NCBI GenBank assembly: GCA_030248295.1
Contig: JASANH010000976.1
Span: 62,001-126,000, forward strand
Origin: Mesodorylaimus sp. YZB2_4
Taxonomy: Eukaryota; Nematoda; Enoplea; Dorylaimida; Dorylaimidae
DNA length: 64,000 bases
Reading direction: 5' to 3'
The notes under the pieces: model-generated
Databases searched by the model: none
What the model was told of the DNA's origin: nothing
What the model saw: only the letters and a program-made list of their open reading frames with translations
Translations under genes and position numbers: made by a program
Part shown: positions 6,829-53,672 of the stretch, in pieces
Layout: every line of letters starts with the position of its first letter
How positions within the stretch are numbered: the first letter of the stretch is position 1

Positions 6829-8145
6829 ACAGTCGTACAACTCAAGTTGCGCCTAAATTGACTAGAGTCATGACGTTGATGCCAATATTGCTAAATGTTA
6901 GTCACTTCTGTCAGCTTTTTATGAAGCCGGAGAGGGGTCATAACAATTGAGTTGCGGCTGGGCAGTGACTTCAGTGACTTCGTGAGTGACATAGGGAATC
7001 AATTTGTCTGGCAAATCTGTACACCCTGATTAAGAAACAAAAATGATGCAAATATTCTGGCAACCTCACATATTCAACTGCACTGTAAACTAGCTGGGAA
7101 AGTCCCCAAAAACCAACAGGAATATACAGTAACTCTCTAACATCCAAGCTTTTATTATCTGTGTAAGGAATGAGAGTGTAAAGAATGACACTGCATCGCA
7201 AACCCAGCTTTCGTAGGCTCGTCCGTCATTCCTCTACGCCTCATTGTTGGAGAGCGGTCGTGTCTGTTTCGAGTCGTCGTGCACGCGCATCGATCGGTGA
7301 GAATGAGTGTCGCCAAGGAAGTCAAGATCAGTCCCGAAACGTTGGCCATGAAGGAGGGCCAGGGCGTCGAGGTGACGGTGGAGAACACGGGGTCCCGCAC
7401 GTTGACCTACAAGCTCAAGACGACTCGTCCCGCCAGCGTCAAACCGACCAAGGCATTCGGCGTGGTCAAGGCGGGAGGCAACGACAAGTTCAAGATCAAC
7501 TTCAAGCCCACGCCCTCCGAGAAGCCGTTCACCGATGCCGATCGAGTCACAGTGATGGTGGCGGCCATGCCGGACAGCTCCATGGTAAGTCACGTGCTTT
7601 ATGCTTAGGTTCGGGGGTGAGGCTTCGATCGGGCCGCCGTCATCCACACCACGGGCAACTCTTTCCATGCCACGTCTTCTTTTCAGAAACCAGAGCACTT
7701 CTGGAAGTCGCCGGGGGCGTCGGACGCGTTTCGTCAAGTGCTCAAGTTGGAGAAAGCGGCCGAAGGTGGCAAGAAGGAGCCGAAGAAGAAGAAAGAAGAG
7801 TCCGAGAAGGAAGAGTCCGAGGCGAAGAGCGAGGAGAGCGAGGCCGAGACCGAATCTGGCAGCGAGGCATCCGGCAGCGAGGGCACTGAGAGCGAGGCCT
7901 GAACCCGAGATCTGTGATCCGATCGTGATTCCTCCCCGTTCGTGCTTTGACGTGATCGATGCTGGTGTGTTCTCTGGGTACGCGTGTGACTGACACAGAT
8001 GATCAAACTGTTGATTCCGTAGGATCGACACTACAAGCATGAGCGTGCAAGCAAGCTGAAAGCAAAGAATCGTAGCATGAGTGAGCAAACCTATTTTGGC
8101 ACTAATGTGCTCCGCAGCTTCATGGCATCCCTGGTCAACAGTATT
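6829..8145 (+). repeat. MSP segmental duplication, copy 1
   Basis: The whole block recurs in inverted orientation at 52350-53667. The flank left of the gene (6829-7290) is similar but carries many substitutions and small indels. From about 7290 to 8060 the copies are near identical except for a 26-base insertion in the intron of copy 2. Similarity then falls slowly and stops at about 8145, just after ctggtcaacagtatt. Confidence 0.9.
7303..7902 (+). CDS. MSP-domain protein with acidic tail, copy 1
   Basis: Two exons, 7303-7584 and 7687-7902, separated by a 102-base GT-AG intron, encode 165 residues. Residues about 5-105 form a major sperm protein/VAP-type beta-sandwich: VKISPETLAM near the start, then a run of alternating strands (TYKLKTTRP, FKINFKPTPSEKP). 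Residues about 118-165 are a charged tail of Lys then repeated Ser-Glu units. In nematodes, small MSP-domain proteins act in sperm cytoskeletal assembly and signalling, while VAP proteins add a membrane anchor. No hydrophobic anchor is present here, so a soluble cytoplasmic role is more likely. The start is the ATG just after gatcggtgaga; an upstream GTG also lies in frame. The coding sequence is identical to the copy at 52.6-53.2 kb. Expression in sperm is inference from the family. Confidence 0.85.
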
Positions 8146-25790: not shown

Positions 25791-27640
25791 ATGACCGATC
25801 GCACTCAGGAAAAACGGAGGGCTTCCAAAGCAAAAACGGAAATCACTATGACGTCCAATTGGTCCTCAATAGCGGAAGAGAACAACGGAATGGGTGACGT
25901 CACAGTCGCTCAGAAAAAAATCGCAGAAAATTGCGACAGCCAAACGAACGGTCAATCAGAACACAGAGCAGAGCACACTTCCTAGCTTTCGTCTGACTCC
26001 CGGACGCCTCCGCCTAACGGTCCAGAAATGACCAGGTAGAAAGGAACCGCAGCCAACCCTTCGTTTCCTACAGGGCGCGTAATGAGCTCCTTCCTAGCTA
26101 GGAGTATTCTTCGTTCCCTGAGACCGGTTCGCAACGAAATCAAGAAGTCAATGGTTGAGAAGCCGGCCTTGACTATGGCTTTCCAAACTGAAGCAGCCCG
26201 TGATACCTACATCATGGAGACAGAATTCTTCGTCAATAAGCTGAAGGCCCGCCGTATTGCATTTTTCCAGCTCCATGAGAAGCTAATTCAGATTACCTGC
26301 ACGACGGAAGCTGATCAGAAATCCGTCGATGAGGTCGCAAAGCCGACTCGAACCTGATACTGGAACTGGATGCTGTGATTGAGGAAATTTCCGTCGTTCT
26401 GAGCACCCTCAATCGAGCCCGTGACCGTGATTTTCAGCGCAGGCAAGCAATCGCTGCGGACCTGGATCGTCAGCAAGCGGTGGCCGCCCCGAGTGTAAAG
26501 CTGCCCAAAATCGATTTGAAGAAATTTTCTGGTGACGTCATGCAGCGGCATGAGTTTTGGGACTCCTTCGAAACGGCCATTCATAACAACACTACCCTGT
26601 CTGATGTTGACAAATTTAACTATTTACGTGGCCAGCTGCTTGGGGAAGCCAAGTCAGCCATTACAGGTCTGTCCTTGACGAACGAAAATTATGCGCATGC
26701 GGTCGAAATTTTGAACAAGCGATACGGCGACAAACAGGTGGTCGTCAACTCGCACTATATGGCTCTCTCGACTCTGCAGGCGCCACCAGATCAGACGCCT
26801 AAAATCCGTTTTGTGTGGGACAAAGTCGAAAAGCATCTTCGTTCGTTGGAAGCCCTAGGCGAACAGATCGAGCACGGACATGTTGTGTCAGTCATTTTCT
26901 CGAAACTACCGCGCGATGTAATTTTGCGCCTGGAAGAAAATCGGGGAGATGAGGCTTGGACGGTAGCCGCACTCCGAAAAAGGGTACAGAAATTGCTCGA
27001 AGCCCGAGAACTGGCTGATCAGCATCACAAGCCATCAGCATCCGTAGCACCAAAACCTACAAGAGGCTTTTTGCATGGGCAAAATGGACCCCAGAAGAGA
27101 TCTGGAGGATATCACACGTCTGACGACGACCAGAAAAAACAGGGCGGATATCACACGACGACAGGCTCCCTCTTGACCCACTCCAGAGCTTAGAAGACGC
27201 AAAGTAGCAAGTGTTTCTTTTGCCAAGGCGACCATTGGGCTGATGAATGTCCAGTGTATACTACAGTTGAAGCCAGGAAGAAACAGATCAAGGGAAAATG
27301 TTTCGTCTGCATTAGAGAAGGTCATAGCCAAAAGGCTTGCAAATCTGAAAAGGCATGTGTGCACTGCAAACAGAAGAAACGTCATCATCGAAGTTTGTGC
27401 CCAAAGAAGTTCTCCATGCAGGATCCGAAAAACGAAGCTGCCTGTCCTGTTTTGGAAGAACATCAGAAAACCGAACCTGAGGGGCACAAGCCTGAATCAA
27501 TTTGGTCAATTTGGATGGACGTGGTCTTCTTCAAACTGCGAGTGCACATGTCATGACCCCACAATCGCCGCATGGAGAAAAAGTCCGACTAGTTTTCGAC
27601 TGTGGGAGTCAGCGCACATACAGTATGTTTGATACATGTA
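25791..27640 (+). pseudogene. BEL/Pao retrotransposon gag to protease remnant
   Basis: The best part is the frame 26375-27193, a Pao-type gag (DUF1759 region) with KLPKIDLKKFSGD, WDSFETAIHNN and KFNYLRGQLLGEA. Before it, two short frames (25791-25985, 26082-26357) carry the N-terminal gag part. After it, in other frames, come three zinc-knuckle-like clusters (CFFCQGDHWADEC, CFVCIREGHSQKAC, a final CxxC..HH..C) and the start of an aspartic protease with VRLVFDCGSQRTY at about 27575. At least two frameshifts separate these parts. Reverse transcriptase, RNase H and integrase are missing; the sequence changes into a LINE fragment at about 27640. It is a dead fossil copy. Confidence 0.8.
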
Positions 27641-28290: not shown

Positions 28291-28602
28291 GTTTAGTGTT
28301 TGTCTCTTACCTCCAGAGTGCGCATTCGGGTTTAAAGTTCGAGTAAACTGAGTATAAGTACCGCAAGTACAATTTAAAAAACGCAGGGTAGGTAATGGCA
28401 CATGAGCGTCGCCGAGTACCCACTCGCCTCACTGATGCGTACTCTGTGACTTTCGTGTAACTGCGATATCCACCATTATTGCCACGGCTCAGCAAGTACA
28501 GATGCAGATCTACAGATGCACACTGTAGATCTGCTGTACAGTACGAATGAACCTCCTAAAAACACGACGACTAATTGTACGCTATGCCGACTTGGGACCG
28601 GG
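28291..28602. other. Intergenic, no gene seen
   Basis: Short spacer between the LINE fragment and SINE-1 copy 2. It contains an agatctacag repeat around 28506-28533 but nothing else. Confidence 0.35.
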
Positions 28603-28912
28603 GCCGTGGCCCAGGGCGAGTTTAGGCGCTTTTGCAGTTTGTCCCCCAACCTCTTAAATCCAGTCCATCCTAGCCTAAGCCTAAGGCTGAAACTAAGCCT
28701 AAATCCAGCCTACCCTAGCCTAAGCCTAAGCATATTGGGGGACAAAGTGCAAAAGTGCCGGTTTAGGCGTCTGCCTGTCACGCTGTGTGCGCACTCAGAG
28801 GGGAGGGTTCGACTCCCGCCTCGGTACAAAGTGATGTGTTCTGTAGCCCTCGAGTGTGCTGTATGGTGCTTGGCTATGGATAAAAGTATGATTTGATATG
28901 ACATGACATAAT
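28603..28912 (+). repeat. tRNA-derived SINE (SINE-1), copy 2, interrupted
   Basis: It starts ccggggccgtggccc and, after the MITE insertion, resumes with gtctgcctgtcacgctg, the B-box gggttcgactcc, the same body (tagccctcgagtgtgc ... gtgcttggctatggat) and a degraded ATGAC tail. It is the same family as the copy at 12.48-12.66 kb. The insertion falls in the A-box part of the head, so this copy cannot have a normal polymerase III promoter. Confidence 0.75.
28619..28769. mobile_element. MITE with telomere-like (TTAGGC)n interior
   Basis: Near-perfect ~25-base terminal inverted repeats (starting ggcgcttttgcagtttgtccc at the left, mirrored at the right before ggtttaggcg) enclose about 80 bases. The interior contains five exact GCCTAA units and several degenerate ones, which is TTAGGC on the other strand. 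gtttaggcg occurs at both edges and is probably the target-site duplication, though it partly overlaps the TIR ends, so the true length is 8-9 bases or shorter. No coding capacity. An 8-base duplication would fit hAT-type elements, but the superfamily is not established. Confidence 0.7.
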
Positions 28913-29070: not shown

Positions 29071-29125
29071 ATAAGTTTGAGAGGGAGAAACTGCATGCAG
29101 CCAGTTCACGAAGGGCATCTTCGAC

Positions 29126-29323
29126 CCCCCCCCCCCCCCAGAGGCACTTTCTGTCCCGATTACCTAATCTAAGGACCACCCCAACTACAGATCAGTTTTG
29201 ACACTTTTCAACCTCGACTGGGATGATCAGGCTCGTCTACCCCCCCCCCCCCCCCCGCTGGTGTGCCCACCAGACGGCCTGCTGCACTGTAAAGCAGAAC
29301 GCACTGCCCCCCCCCCCCCCCAA
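29126..29323. repeat. Three C homopolymers
   Basis: Runs of about 15, 17 and 15 C lie at about 29126, 29241 and 29308 in a 200-base stretch just upstream of the F-box-like gene. They would form G-rich runs on the other strand. Exact lengths in such runs are unreliable in assemblies. Confidence 0.7.
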
Positions 29324-48678: not shown

Positions 48679-51334
48679 ATGAACAGCTCCGATCGTCGGT
48701 TGATTTCCGCTTTCAAAGTTATCGGAGAAATGTGCGAGCGTATTCACTTGGCCAAGTCGATCAAAGTATGTTCGTGCTGTAGTAAACGTTTTTTCTCCGA
48801 ATTCAAGTTTGTTCTTTAGGATCAAGCGGACTTGTTGTACACGAAAGTATTGGAAAGTAAGCAGTTGAAAGGCAAGAATTCGGAAGCCGTCGCCGCCGCT
48901 TGCTTGTATATTGCGTGCCGAAAAGAAGGAGTGCCTCGCACGTTTAAGGGTAAGCTAGATTTGACAATATATTCAACAGATTCGCAGTCTGCGCAATTCT
49001 TTTTAGAAATTTGCGCTGTATCGCGTGTCGAAAAGAAAGAAATCGGTCGTTCTTTTGATTTGTACTGTACCCGCGCAGCGCTTGACAGCTTGACCACGCC
49101 TATGCTTATTTCGGACTGGTCTTGTTAGCTCCACCTACCGCGCACTTTGCCTTTATATTCTGTATGCCCGCATGATTTTGCGCACTTGATTTGCATTCCG
49201 ACTTGTCGTTTGGTGCTTGGTAAAATCGATTAGAGCTCCGTGCCTTCTGACTAAACCACCATACATAACATATTGGCGACGTCTTCGATTTTGCCTTTTG
49301 CATGTTCACCTTCTTGCGAGTGTGTTCAAGATGGTTCCACCAGTCCCCCAGGTCCCTGCTTTTCTTCCGACGTTTTCTCCTTTTGATCCTAACGTCTGCA
49401 GATTTTCGGTTTATGTTCAACGTTTCCGCCAGTCCTTGCTTTTACACAACGTCCCCGCTGATCGTCACGTAGCTGCATTGTTGACCGCTTTGGGCGACTC
49501 CCTCTACCAACTCCTGGTCAATTTGGTGGCTCCCGACCACCCGACTGGTCTTCCCATCGATCAGATGATTGCAGCATTGACTGAGCATTTCGAACCGAAA
49601 ACCTTAGTGGTTGCAGAGCGTCAGAAATTTTACCAACGTCGACAGGGCGATGGCGAAACGATTGCTAATTTTACGTCCGATTTGAAGCGGCTTTCGCTAT
49701 CATGCAACTTTGGTGATCATCTTAATGATCCCTACGAGATCAAATCGTAGCTGGCTTGCGGAATGAGCAGACTAAGAAACGTCTGTGTACTGAAGCGAAC
49801 CTTACATGGCAAAAAGCTTTTGAATAAGCTCAGCAATTTGAAGCAGGTGAGCGTGATTTGCCAGTATTCCTGCCTACGAGTGGTGCGTCCTTGGTTTCTG
49901 CTTCAGCGTCCGTCCAGCAAGTGCAAGGCCATAAAGCCAGTAAGAAACGAGGAAAGAAGAAACCGAATTCGGCTCCTGTGCATTCTGCCAATGCTTCTGC
50001 TTCTTCTCCGAAACACGCTCCCGAGGGTACTTCGTGTTACCGCTGTGGTGACACTCGACATTGGGCCAACAAGTGCCCGCATCGAAATTCTACTTGCAAT
50101 AAATGCTCCAAGCTTGGCCATTTAGCCAAAGTTTCTAAGTCGAATGGTCACAATACGCGTCCAGTTTCGGATATTACTGATTCCATGGGTGCTATGACTT
50201 TGAATAGCATGACTGTGCCCGAATTTGCTACTGCTCGGAACGATGAGGTATTCGTTTTTGCGATTATCGGGACTACTCCTATTCAATTGCTATTGGATAC
50301 TGGTGCAAAGGTGAGTGCCCTGAATGCTACGACCTGGAGTCCGATTGGGTCGCCTGCTTTGAAGCCTACACGTATGGAATCAAAAAAGTACGGTGGTACG
50401 AAGCTGTCCGTTTTGGGTACTGTGCAAGTCCCACTGCGTATAAATATGCATGAAAAAAATGTGGAATTGTTCGTCGTGGATGAGTTTGGCAACAACATTT
50501 TCGGTCGCGACTTGCTGCCCTTATTTCCTCTCGACTGGAAGGGTATCTTCCAACAGTTGAAAATCACGGCGAATGTGGACACTGTACTACAATTAGGTGT
50601 CTTCCCATCGCTCATGAATACCATTAGATTGGCCGATGCAGAGCGCATTTTTCCAAATGTTTTCAAGGATGATCTGGGCTGCATCAAGGATGTCAAAGGC
50701 CATGTTGAGATGAGATCCGATGCTACTCCGAAATTCTACAAACCACGTCCTGTGCCCTTCGCTCTCAAAAGTAAAATCGAAATTGAGATGAAACGCCTGC
50801 AAGAGCAAGGAGTGATTGAGCCGATCATGAGGTCCGACTGGGCTGCTCCTATCATTCCAGTTCTGAAACAGAATGGCACGGATCGTTCTGGTGTATCGTC
50901 CAGCAAAGCTTCGACTGCAGCTTCTTTGGTTCATACTGCGCCGCCGCCCGGGCGCTCGCCGCGATACAATCTCCGCTCGACGATTCGCCCTCCCAAGCGT
51001 TTTGAGTTTTACACAGACTTTTGACGATTTTATTTGGGAGATTTTCTTTTCTTTGATGTGCAAGGGAAATGATATGTACTGTACCGGCGCAGCGCTTGAC
51101 AGCTTGACCACGCCTGTGCTTATTTCGGATTGGTCTTGTAGCTCCACCTACCGCGCACTTTGCCTTTATATTCTGTATGCCCGCATGATTTTGCGCACTT
51201 GATTTGCATTCCGACTTGTCGTTTGGTGCTTGGTAAAATCGATTAGAGCTCCGTGCCTTCTGACTAAACCACCATACATAACATGTTTCTCGTTAATCTT
51301 GAAAAAATTCGACATTAATTCGTCTGCGTCTTAG
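48679..51334 (+). pseudogene. GTF2B: Partial TFIIB gene split by an LTR element
   Basis: TFIIB bridges TBP and RNA polymerase II. Exons found: 48679-48765 (MNSSDRRLISAFKVIGEM), 48820-48949 ([17 protein letters not shown], then [16 protein letters not shown]) and 49007-49050 ([15 protein letters not shown]), equal to the first cyclin repeat. The exon is interrupted at 49051 by an LTR retrotransposon and continues at 51284 with CFSLILKKFD, then a stop at 51332. The zinc ribbon, B-finger and second cyclin repeat are not in the window: no upstream exon is found in the ~400 bases to AMPD. Only an unconvincing short exon-like ATG-TCA-AAA with a donor occurs near 48616. As it stands this cannot make TFIIB; an intact copy must exist elsewhere. 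It might also be an insertion allele or haplotype. Confidence 0.8.
49051..51288 (+). mobile_element. Nonautonomous Ty3/gypsy-like LTR element
   Basis: LTRs of about 215 bases at 49056-49270 and 51070-51283 start TGAT(T/A)TGTACTG and end ACATAACA. I count four substitutions and one single-base gap between them, about 98% identity. Flanking five-base copies are tcttt (left) and tgttt (right), a target duplication with one change. After the 5' LTR is tattggcgac, a usual gypsy primer-site context; before the 3' LTR is a purine tract. Inside: a gag frame (ATG 49331), a single-base frameshift near 49733, an in-frame TAA near 49830, a CCHC knuckle (CYRCGDTRHWANKC), a protease with LLLDTGAKVSALN, the very start of reverse transcriptase (EQGVIEPIMRSDWAAP), then a direct jump near 50880 to a short C-terminal tail. 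Most of reverse transcriptase, RNase H and integrase are deleted. Confidence 0.9.
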
Positions 51335-51715
51335 ATTGCTGCTTGTGAGATTTGGAAGCGCCAATTGGAGAATGATCATCCACGATTCAACTGTGTCCAA
51401 AAAGTGGACATGTATTGACTAGATTTCTTTCTTTTGAGTTTTTTGTGGATTGTGATCGAAGATGTAGAATAGGACTTTCTGAGATGTATTGTGAACAGGC
51501 AAAGTGTAAGCGACTCGAGATGGAATAAATTTGTTTGAATTTTGGATTGGGGCAGTGCTGTCGGAGGTTTGGACTCAACATGGACCATTGGTGGATTACC
51601 GAAAGTGATATGTAGTCTTGTGTTTGAAGGAGAGTGGCGGCTGGAGATGTGCTGACGGACTTTGTTGCTGGTTGGACTTCTGGTAAGTGGACGTATGGGG
51701 CAACAGGGCGTGGAG
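51335..51715. other. Spacer after the TFIIB fragment, no gene seen
   Basis: AT-rich sequence with frames on both strands that I cannot link to any family. I looked for the missing TFIIB C-terminal exons here and did not find them. Confidence 0.4.
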
Positions 51716-51935
51716 GGCGTGGACCCGAGTGTGACCAAGCCTGGCAGGCGTAGGCGGGAGGGAACAAATACTCGGACTGGAGCAAGGCAAGCTTGCGACC
51801 GTACCTGCGGCCTGCGGCTGAGACATAAACCCGAGGGGTTGATGTCTTCCAGCCAGGGGAGATCGATGATTCTCTCCCTCCCACTCGCCATGGCCAACCA
51901 GGCGCCAGGGTTACACGAGGATAACCAAACGACGG
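51716..51935 (+). repeat. Interspersed repeat family 3, copy 2
   Basis: Matches 24570-24790 in ordered blocks (see that entry). It lies just upstream of the surviving exons of the SLC25 fragment, where that gene's first exon would be expected. Confidence 0.6.
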
Positions 51936-52008
51936 CTGAAACATCACCCTGACGGGTGACGTTGCATGCGCCAGCTCCATCCAGACTTGCACTGTTTGAA
52001 CGTTGCAG

Positions 52009-52360
52009 GTATCACTGGTCTCTTGGCTAGTCATCCGCTGGACACGGTTAAGGTAAGATCAGGATTCGAGTTCCCAAATGAGTGTGGTTTACGTGTGATT
52101 TTCAGGTTCGATTGCAATCATTGGACGGGTACAAGGGCGCTGTGCAATGTGTGTCTCGGACGATGCGCGAAGAGTCGATCCGTGGTTTCTACAGGGGCAT
52201 GGGGGCCCCGTTGGTCATGGCGGGCTTCCTCCAGTCCACCTTCTTCCTCGGCTACAGTTCGTCCTTTGCAGTGACTGAACACTGGCGGAGTCGTGGCGGC
52301 TATGAGAGGAGCAAGCAGGAACAGAGGAAGGAGAACCCTCTCGGAGTGGAATACTGTTGA
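52009..52360 (+). pseudogene. Truncated SLC25 mitochondrial carrier
   Basis: Exons 52009-52052 and 52106-52360 are joined by a 53-base intron. They encode the first third of a mitochondrial inner-membrane carrier: GITGLLASHPLDTVKVRLQ holds the carrier signature PxDxxK/R with the intron in the middle, then YKGAVQCVSRTMREESIRGF, YRGMGAPLVMAG and FFLGYSS. The pattern is closest to the SLC25A45/A29-type group as I recall it. The other two carrier repeats are missing, and no start-Met exon was found. The last residues (GVEYC then stop) are read from the beginning of the MSP duplication, so the frame ends by crossing a rearrangement junction at about 52350. Confidence 0.75.
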
Positions 52361-53667
52361 CCAGGGATGCCATGAAGATGCCGAGACATTAGCGCCAGAA
52401 TAGGTTTGCTCACTCATGCTAAGATTCTTTGCTTGCAGCTTGCTTGCACGCTCATGCTTGTAGTGTCGATCCTACGGAATCAACAGTTTGATCATCTGTG
52501 TCAGTCACACGCGTACCCAGAGAACACACCAGCATCGATCACGTCAAAGCACGAACGGGGAGGAATCACGATCGGATCACAGATCTCGGGTTCAGGCCTC
52601 GCTCTCAGTGCCCTCGCTGCCGGATGCCTCGCTGCCAGATTCGGTCTCGGCCTCGCTCTCCTCGCTCTTCGCCTCGGACTCTTCCTTCTCGGACTCTTCT
52701 TTCTTCTTCTTCGGCTCCTTCTTGCCACCTTCGGCCGCTTTCTCCAACTTGAGCACTTGACGAAACGCGTCCGACGCCCCCGGCGACTTCCAGAAGTGCT
52801 CTGGTTTCTGAAAAGAAGACGTGGCATGGAAAGAGTTGTATGCCCGTGGTGTTGCACGGCATGCCCGTGGTGTGGATGACGGCGGCCCAATCGAAGCCTC
52901 ACCCCCGAACCTAAGCATAAAGCACCGTGACTTACCATGGAGCTGTCCGGCATGGCCGCCACCATCACTGTGACTCGATCGGCATCGGTGAACGGCTTCT
53001 CGGAGGGCGTGGGCTTGAAGTTGATCTTGAACTTGTCGTTGCCTCCCGCCTTGACCACGCCGAATGCCTTGGTCGGTTTGACGCTGGCGGGACGAGTCGT
53101 CTTGAGCTTGTAGGTCAACGTGCGGGACCCCGTGTTCTCCACCGTCACCTCGACGCCCTGGCCCTCCTTCATGGCCAACGTTTCGGGACTGATCTTGACT
53201 TCCTTGGCGACACTCATTCTCACCGATCGATGCGCGTACACGACGACTCGAAACAGACACGACCGCTCACCAACAACGAGGCGTAGAGGAATGACGGACG
53301 AGCCTACGAAAGCTGGGTCTGCGATGCAGCATTCTTTGCACTGTCGATTGTTAAAGATAATAGAAGCTTGGATGTTAGAGAGTTATTGTTTATTTCTTGT
53401 TGGTTTTTTGGGGACTTGCCTAGCTATTGTACAGTGCAGTTGAATATGCGATGTTGCCAGAATATTTGCAGCATTTTACAGATCTGCCAGACAAATTGAT
53501 TCCCTATGTCACTCACGAAGTCACTGAAGTCACTGCTCAGCCGCGACTCAATTGTAATGACCCCTCTCTGGCTTCAGAAAAAGCACCAGAAGTGACTAAC
53601 ATTTAGCGATATTGGCGTCAACGTGATGACTCTAGTCAATTCGGGCGCAACTTGAGCTGTACAACTG
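52350..53667 (-). repeat. MSP segmental duplication, copy 2 (inverted)
   Basis: Inverted copy of 6829-8145. The junction at about 52350 abuts the SLC25 fragment. Differences from copy 1 cluster in the outer flanks. The intron has an extra 26 bases made by a tandem repeat of accacgggcat. Confidence 0.9.
52592..53217 (-). CDS. MSP-domain protein with acidic tail, copy 2
   Basis: Two exons, 52936-53217 and 52592-52807, with the same phase and lengths (282 and 216 bases) as copy 1 and an identical predicted protein of 165 residues. By eye the coding bases are also identical. The intron is 128 bases against 102 in copy 1. Domain layout is as in copy 1: MSP/VAP-type fold at about 5-105 and a Lys then Ser-Glu-rich tail. 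No stop, frameshift or splice-site damage is visible, so both copies should be functional. Confidence 0.85.
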
Positions 53668-53672
53668 TGGAG

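Follow-up and report, generated by a model that had tools for sequence, protein, structure and literature searches.

Nematode telomere hexamers as probable passengers of Merlin-type miniature transposable elements in Mesodorylaimus

Overview

A stretch of 64,000 nucleotides from the dorylaimid nematode Mesodorylaimus sp. YZB2_4 (assembly GCA_030248295.1, contig JASANH010000976.1, positions 62,001 to 126,000), referred to here as the window, contains at 28625-28759 a short inverted-repeat element whose interior is rich in TTAGGC, the hexamer that makes up the telomeres of most nematodes (PMC9071541). The element is probably, at a rough estimate of 90%, a non-autonomous miniature inverted-repeat transposable element (MITE) of the Merlin superfamily (the IS1595/IS1016-like DDE class) that inherited its telomere hexamers as passenger DNA. 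Transposition, and not a preference for telomeres, appears to have scattered this chromosome-end sequence through the genome. The genome searched (145 Mb, 1,067 contigs) contains a family of such elements with common ends and target-site duplications, a Merlin element that has the same ends and shares the interior, and arrays that vary in length among Merlins.

Structure of the MITE in the window

A sequence-only reading of the window had described an inverted-repeat element of about 150 bases with telomere repeats inside. The observation holds as regards the inverted repeat, with arms of 25 nt that are 92% complementary, and the five exact TTAGGC units on a single strand, while the element proper is 135 bp in length. 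The element and the short interspersed element (SINE) in which it lies are laid out as follows, with TIR denoting a terminal inverted repeat.

28598 to 28912, plus strand: tRNA-type SINE split by the MITE; ends approximate
28617 to 28624, plus strand: left copy of the target-site duplication, CGAGTTTA, part of the SINE; length from the family-wide 8 bp, boundary from the GGC start of the TIR
28625 to 28649, plus strand: left TIR, GGCGC end, matching the 3' end of the putative autonomous Merlin
28650 to 28734, minus strand: MITE interior, probable remnant of a TTAGGC-rich minisatellite; two copies of the unit, 45 bp apart
28735 to 28759, minus strand: right TIR, GGCAC end, matching the 5' end of the putative autonomous Merlin
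28760 to 28765, plus strand: putative right copy of the target-site duplication, read (CG)GGTTTA with 2 bp lost (CCCGGG to CCGG)

The exact TTAGGC units between the arms start at 28673, 28679, 28697, 28718 and 28724 on the minus strand and run from the GGCAC end towards the GGCGC end; the interior holds a 31-nt repeat with a spacing of 45. One more TTAGGC, on the plus strand, lies at each edge of the MITE (28622 and 28763). TTAGGC occurs 31 times in the whole window where 22.9 occurrences are expected, a count that was reached in 5 of 100 shuffles. Since this is only mildly above chance, the signal consists of the local cluster and its recurrence elsewhere.

A family of TTAGGC-bearing copies

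A search with the MITE gave 65 matches from 40 scored of 155 first-look candidates, and a TIR pattern allowing up to 2 mismatches found 457 ends in the genome compared with 0 for a reversed control pattern. From a set of loci in which these 457 ends were represented by the 100 best matches, with 17 further regions outside the set, 61 TIR pairs were collected, so the counts given below lean towards intact copies, and the loci are not all separate insertions (L026 and L027 are one duplicated segment entered as two pairs). The pairs span 51 to 1,498 bp, with 56 of the 61 falling between 114 and 303 bp, and five are assigned by their TTTTGCC ends to a sister family, B. Mean pairwise identity among 29 standard copies is 86%. 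The elements are short, bounded by TIRs and present in many copies, as MITEs are, their non-coding character being judged from length.

The tabulation of interior repeats that the sequence-only reading had proposed revealed GCCTAA, which is TTAGGC on the opposite strand, in 60 of the 61 pairs and in tandem in 46; the single pair that lacks it is 51 bp long. The 61 copies, which are related and not independent, contain 246 GCCTAA in total, compared with a mean of 3.3 and a maximum of 9 in 200 mononucleotide shuffles. The suggestion that the element spreads telomere-like sequence is thus supported, as TTAGGC is carried across the family.

Assignment to the Merlin superfamily

Comparison of the flanks of the 61 pairs gives a target-site duplication of 8 bp, at which length flank identity is 0.672 as opposed to 0.288 in shuffled pairings (z 16.8). 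The z value is 6.0 at 7 bp and 3.6 at 9 bp, without exact matches, and no more than 1.6 at other lengths from 2 to 14. Exact agreement of the 8-bp flanks is seen in 14 of the 61 pairs; 31 have one mismatch or none, and 37 have two or fewer. The 9-bp duplication gtttaggcg that had been proposed for the window copy therefore gives way to one of 8 bp.

Merlins have 8- to 9-bp duplications, TIRs that start with GG in all families and, in some, internal tandem repeats (PMC8101967). The family described here agrees with this in its duplication, in TIRs that start with GG on the left in 53 of 61 pairs, on the right in 51 and on both sides in 43, and in having a partner with the DDE_Tnp_IS1595 domain that shares both its TIRs and its interior (C3:654623-656485), itself flanked by GGAAACTG on both sides.

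Two other superfamilies were considered. The hAT elements, weighed for their 8-bp duplication, have TIRs of the form YARNG or CAGGG and were set aside given the GGCRC-like ends. MULE duplications are usually 9-11 bp, and MULE was likewise set aside, since at 9, 10 and 11 bp none of the 61 pairs matches exactly or with one mismatch.

A Merlin with the same ends and a nested TTAGGC array

When the genome was searched with the profile PF12762 (DDE_Tnp_IS1595, the Merlin transposase), 31 hits were obtained. The candidate parent of the MITEs is the 1,863-bp element C3:654623-656485, which has MITE-type TIRs and, by its domain-table row, a 331-aa open frame without stops that includes DDE_Tnp_IS1595. 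Its 3' end reads TTTGGGGAGTAAAGTGCAAAAGCGCC, close to the MITE TIR, and is followed by GGAAACTG. The pattern predicted for the opposite end, GGAAACTG joined to the start of the TIR, occurs exactly only once in the 145 Mb. That occurrence, at C3:654615-654634, lies upstream of the transposase domain (655445-655849). When up to 3 mismatches are allowed, the pattern has 54 matches and its reversed control 29.

Between the stop codon and the 3' TIR of the C3 Merlin lies a nested TTAGGC minisatellite. Over 67 ungapped bp this array can be aligned with the interior of the MITE in the window, with a score of 69, the best score in 2,000 dinucleotide shuffles being 43. Polarity agrees as well: in 50 of 61 pairs the end to the left of GCCTAA has G as its fourth base and the opposite end has A, which is also the case in C3. 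A GGCAC-to-GGCGC direction of TTAGGC is thus common to the C3 Merlin and, judged by these fourth bases, the 50 pairs. The idea that the element captured telomere sequence stands only insofar as its interior shares homology with a repeat carried by the Merlin parent. A Merlin next to a MITE at C620/C768 was also considered as the autonomous copy and was rejected, as that MITE has a duplication of its own and adjoins a Merlin fragment in a duplicated segment.

These relationships point to a mechanism in which the TTAGGC units of the MITEs would be the remnant of the nested minisatellite that Merlins of the same genome carry between their transposase stop codon and 3' TIR. Merlin transposase supplied in trans would recognise the GGCRCTTTTGCA ends, and insertion would occur at 8-bp staggered cuts regardless of TTAGGC. 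The telomere repeats presumably ride along as passenger DNA, shrinking or growing by complete hexamers, of which a unit has 2 to 5, and by complete units, and the outcome of such spread would be dispersed interstitial telomere sequence.

Variation of the array and a second Merlin family

In the stretch C567:18300-19200 the Merlin frame ends with KRFCGENLFFQLWKDVVEKYPC and a stop codon, after which a unit made up of TTAGTCTTGGATGGGCTGGATG and TAGGC/TTAGGC words is repeated about a dozen times. Complete units measure 33, 39, 45 or 51 bp, which corresponds to 21 bp plus 2 to 5 hexamers, and each holds 2 to 5 TAGGC. The segment that follows the array in C567 recurs at 97-98% identity in C3, C1047 and C385; for C133 the match is confined to 51 bp, with 90% identity. 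Array length among the Merlins with 97-98% identity ranges from about 140 bp, or 3 units, in C3 to about 550 bp in C567, and is at least 1.9 kb in C385 as judged from coordinates only (50528 to 52435). The MITE of the window keeps the 45-bp spacing, and in some MITEs the unit is present in more copies (4.7 of 45 bp).

A second Merlin family, represented by L096 and L105, has a transposase-like C-terminus, FFNFWAAVAKLYPVNNL and a stop codon, followed by (TTAGGC)5; to the eye this C-terminus resembles that of the first family. The full 281-bp stretch is found at four loci at 99-100% identity, of which only C407 has a PF12762 hit of its own. Parts of the stretch recur 100-600 bases beyond Merlin domains at C113, C671, C555, C483, C477, C453, C211 and C542. 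At C555, C483, C477 and C211 the alignment omits the array part and has 26 bp in place of 85, and the array of the second family accordingly seems, on these alignments, not to be obligatory.

Insertion site of the window copy and the question of targeting

The SINE that harbors the window MITE has an A-box-like tggcccagggc at about 28607, a B box ggttcgactcc at 28806 and a tail of ATGAC-like units. The box labels are tentative, having been read by eye against the consensus; ARAGORN and Rfam applied to the window reported nothing. The SINE is common in the genome, as most of the 40 matches scored for a MITE-plus-SINE query, out of 2,251 first-look candidates, fall in its SINE part. The sequence-only reading had placed the MITE inside the A box of a SINE. 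The SINE is borne out, and the insertion point at 28624/28625 lies just 3' of the A box (about 28607-28617, by eye).

The probable target duplication had been noted to contain TTAGGC, so that target choice and telomere motif seemed to coincide. An element that targets telomere-like DNA, with interior TTAGGC reflecting insertion preference or homology, would account for the presence of gtttaggcg on both sides of the window copy. Among the 37 duplications with at most two mismatches, however, TTAGGC is present in none and TTAGG in one. Furthermore, at the corresponding place all four SINE relatives compared read GGTTAAGGCG (taken by reverse complement at the three of the four loci that lie reversed in the alignment) where the SINE of the window reads GGTTTAGGCG, and the relatives carry TTAAGGC there. 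The left edge TTAGGC is made up of TTTA from the SINE and GGC from the TIR, and the right edge TTAGGC of TTTA and the SINE's own GGC. The TTAGGC at the target of the window copy is therefore an accident of the junction, arising because SINE TTTA meets a GGC that both the TIR and the SINE supply. Targeting of telomere-like DNA is rejected on these grounds as highly improbable. What had been proposed as a refutation of the telomere link, namely copies with random target duplications and interiors without TTAGGC, was found by half: the duplications look unrelated to TTAGGC, yet 60 of 61 copies retain it.

As for the duplication of the window copy itself, the 8-mers that directly abut the element, CGAGTTTA and GGTTTAGG, do not match. 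The right copy may have lost 2 bp, as given in the feature list; alternatively, the duplication might be read as AGTTTAGG/GGTTTAGG, in which case the left TIR would fall short of GG. Both placements fit four SINE copies equally well (scores of 226-230 for both, compared with 209-213 for the filled site).

Weighing the passenger interpretation

Several observations weigh against the reading of the element as a Merlin MITE with inherited TTAGGC as passenger DNA. With TAGGC masked, the score between the MITE interior and the C3 array falls to 21, a value also reached by the best among 5,000 shuffles. A duplication with at most two mismatches is lacking in 24 of the 61 pairs, the window copy included. 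The transposase of the C3 Merlin is predicted from a domain-table row (331 aa, no stops), and the left end of that element from a 20-base pattern match instead of read sequence. There is no PF12762 hit of their own at the second-family loci C28, C216 and C434, nor at C1047. Finally, conservation is 0.940 in GCCTAA columns and 0.904 in other interior columns (p 0.02, a value that the kinship of the copies weakens), and this slightly higher conservation, which is suggestive at most, is not predicted for a pure passenger.

The last observation bears on the possibility that the arrays are functional near the 3' end of Merlin, where they could bind a telomere protein or the transposase, aid transposition, gap repair or chromatin placement, and be kept for that reason. 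Such a function would be in keeping with two facts: TTAGGC follows the transposase stop codon at the same place and on the same strand in two Merlin families, and 60 of 61 TIR pairs retain it. Common descent, however, suffices to explain retention in the MITEs, one 51-bp TIR pair does without TTAGGC, and the second-family loci with 26 bp in place of 85 make the array look dispensable, a point taken from alignments in a search that skips simple repeats. A functional array is therefore judged to be unlikely.

A stronger competitor, to which somewhat less than an even chance is given, is that TTAGGC in Merlin has no connection with telomeres and began as a chance hexamer in a minisatellite that then grew by slippage. 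Other Merlin families do have internal tandem repeats, including a 52-bp unit with 6-bp repeats (PMC8101967). Set against this, the telomere repeat in any phase and on either strand amounts to 12 of 4,096 hexamers and is carried by two families with different flanks, although these possibly derive from one ancestral array. Candidate origins of TTAGGC in Merlin include telomerase-made filler at a break, capture and chance. Filler made by telomerase would place TTAGGC on the strand that continues from the side of the open reading frame, which is the arrangement seen in both families and one that chance would often match. In a more speculative scenario, which we consider improbable, a Merlin that had broken was healed by telomerase and so acquired the hexamers, which are retained for the help that telomere-binding proteins give to repair or movement; Merlins would then seed mobile tracts that could serve as templates for neo-telomeres or for alternative lengthening of telomeres.

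Share of interstitial TTAGGC loci

The expectation that the element could explain some interstitial telomere repeats agrees with the tabulation, in which some of the interstitial TTAGGC loci are traced to related elements. Merlin-type elements hold 20 of the 39 tabulated loci with at least 4 perfect TTAGGC. Twelve of these have a family-B MITE, seven of them read (L036, L094, L095, L097, L102, L103 and L104) and five assigned by the 6-base prefix CTGGTA only; three of the seven read loci (C42, C113:65164 and C291) share flanks and are not independent insertions. Four are assigned to Merlins with an array (partly read at C133 and C567, identified at C385 by domain and 3' segment and at C1047 by the 3' segment alone), and four belong to the second family, two having been read and two identified by full-length match. 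Three of the other loci (C59, C79 and C114) are enclosed by inverted-repeat elements of other kinds, whose ends of 20-25 bp are perfect, and the remaining 16 comprise long clusters, arrays at contig ends and unclassified loci. A PF12762 domain lies within 2 kb of four of the 39, where 0.03 would be expected. The pattern that defines the loci omits arrays with T six bases upstream, such as the family-A copy at C14 and the arrays at C15:506545 and C18.

TTAGGC arrays are also enclosed by two additional kinds of inverted-repeat element, seen at L098, L099 and L101, whose ends are perfect over 25 bp and 20 bp. Long TTAGGC clusters occur at C60:573-7155, C478, C893 and C15. The cluster at the left end of C60 is oriented opposite to a telomere, and the left end of C17 is in telomere orientation.

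Genome and window context

(TTAGGC)4 has 1,893 overlapping matches in the genome and (TTAGGG)4 has none. The canonical nematode SL1 leader has no genome match with at most 1 mismatch, although both the telomere repeats and an MSP domain indicate a nematode. The MSP domain is in a frame of the second copy of an inverted duplication in the window (6829-8145 and 52350-53668; 1,346 aligned bp, 93% identity, about 45 kb apart), the domain scan having covered that second copy. A remnant of a long terminal repeat retrotransposon at 49056-51284 has 216-bp direct repeats that are 97.7% identical and, between them, a frame that matches zinc-knuckle and, weakly, aspartyl protease domains. The frame at 26375-27193, 1.4 kb from the SINE that contains the MITE, matches DUF1759 (PF03564, E 2.9e-32), a domain which we take to be typical of Pao/BEL gag. 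Three C runs of 15, 17 and 15 bases fall within about 200 bases at 29125-29321.

Significance and comparison with known systems

Interstitial telomere sequences are often taken as scars of chromosome fusion or of break repair. A cut-and-paste element together with its MITEs offers a concrete route by which telomere repeats could be scattered, and cautions against taking interstitial TTAGGC tracts as fusion points. Because the arrays vary among Merlins that are 97-98% identical beside the array, growth of hexamers inside a transposon becomes directly testable.

The literature searched, which reached few subscription papers, contained no account of Merlins or their MITEs carrying arrays of TTAGGC or of another telomere repeat; no word starting with telomer is present in the main text of PMC8101967, and none starting with transposon in that of PMC4595603. 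The telomere repeat as the internal repeat of Merlin, in the same place in two families and in about half of the tabulated arrays, thus appears to be unreported.

The Merlins described in PMC8101967 resemble those of Mesodorylaimus in having DDE_Tnp_IS1595, 8-bp duplications, TIRs with GG and internal repeats, including 6-bp repeats nested in a 52-bp unit. They differ in that the nested hexamer in Mesodorylaimus is TTAGGC and is carried by a large MITE progeny. MITEs that carry micro- or minisatellites include Xstir of Xenopus and insect elements with (GTCY)n (reviewed in PMC6947457); there, as here, a short element with TIRs disperses a tandem repeat, but the MITE-borne repeats named in the passages of that review considered here, unlike TTAGGC, are not telomeric. 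Internal TTAGGC tracts away from chromosome ends are also found in C. elegans as TALT regions and interstitial telomere sequences, and such tracts can matter, for in C. elegans without telomerase TALT1, a block flanked by interstitial telomere sequence, was amplified into telomeres (PMC4595603). Mobile elements have likewise been linked with nematode telomeres in Oscheius tipulae, whose telomere-associated elements are large, Helitron-like and located in subtelomeric extensions (PMC8022731), whereas those of Mesodorylaimus are dispersed, of the cut-and-paste type, and carry the telomere repeat inside.
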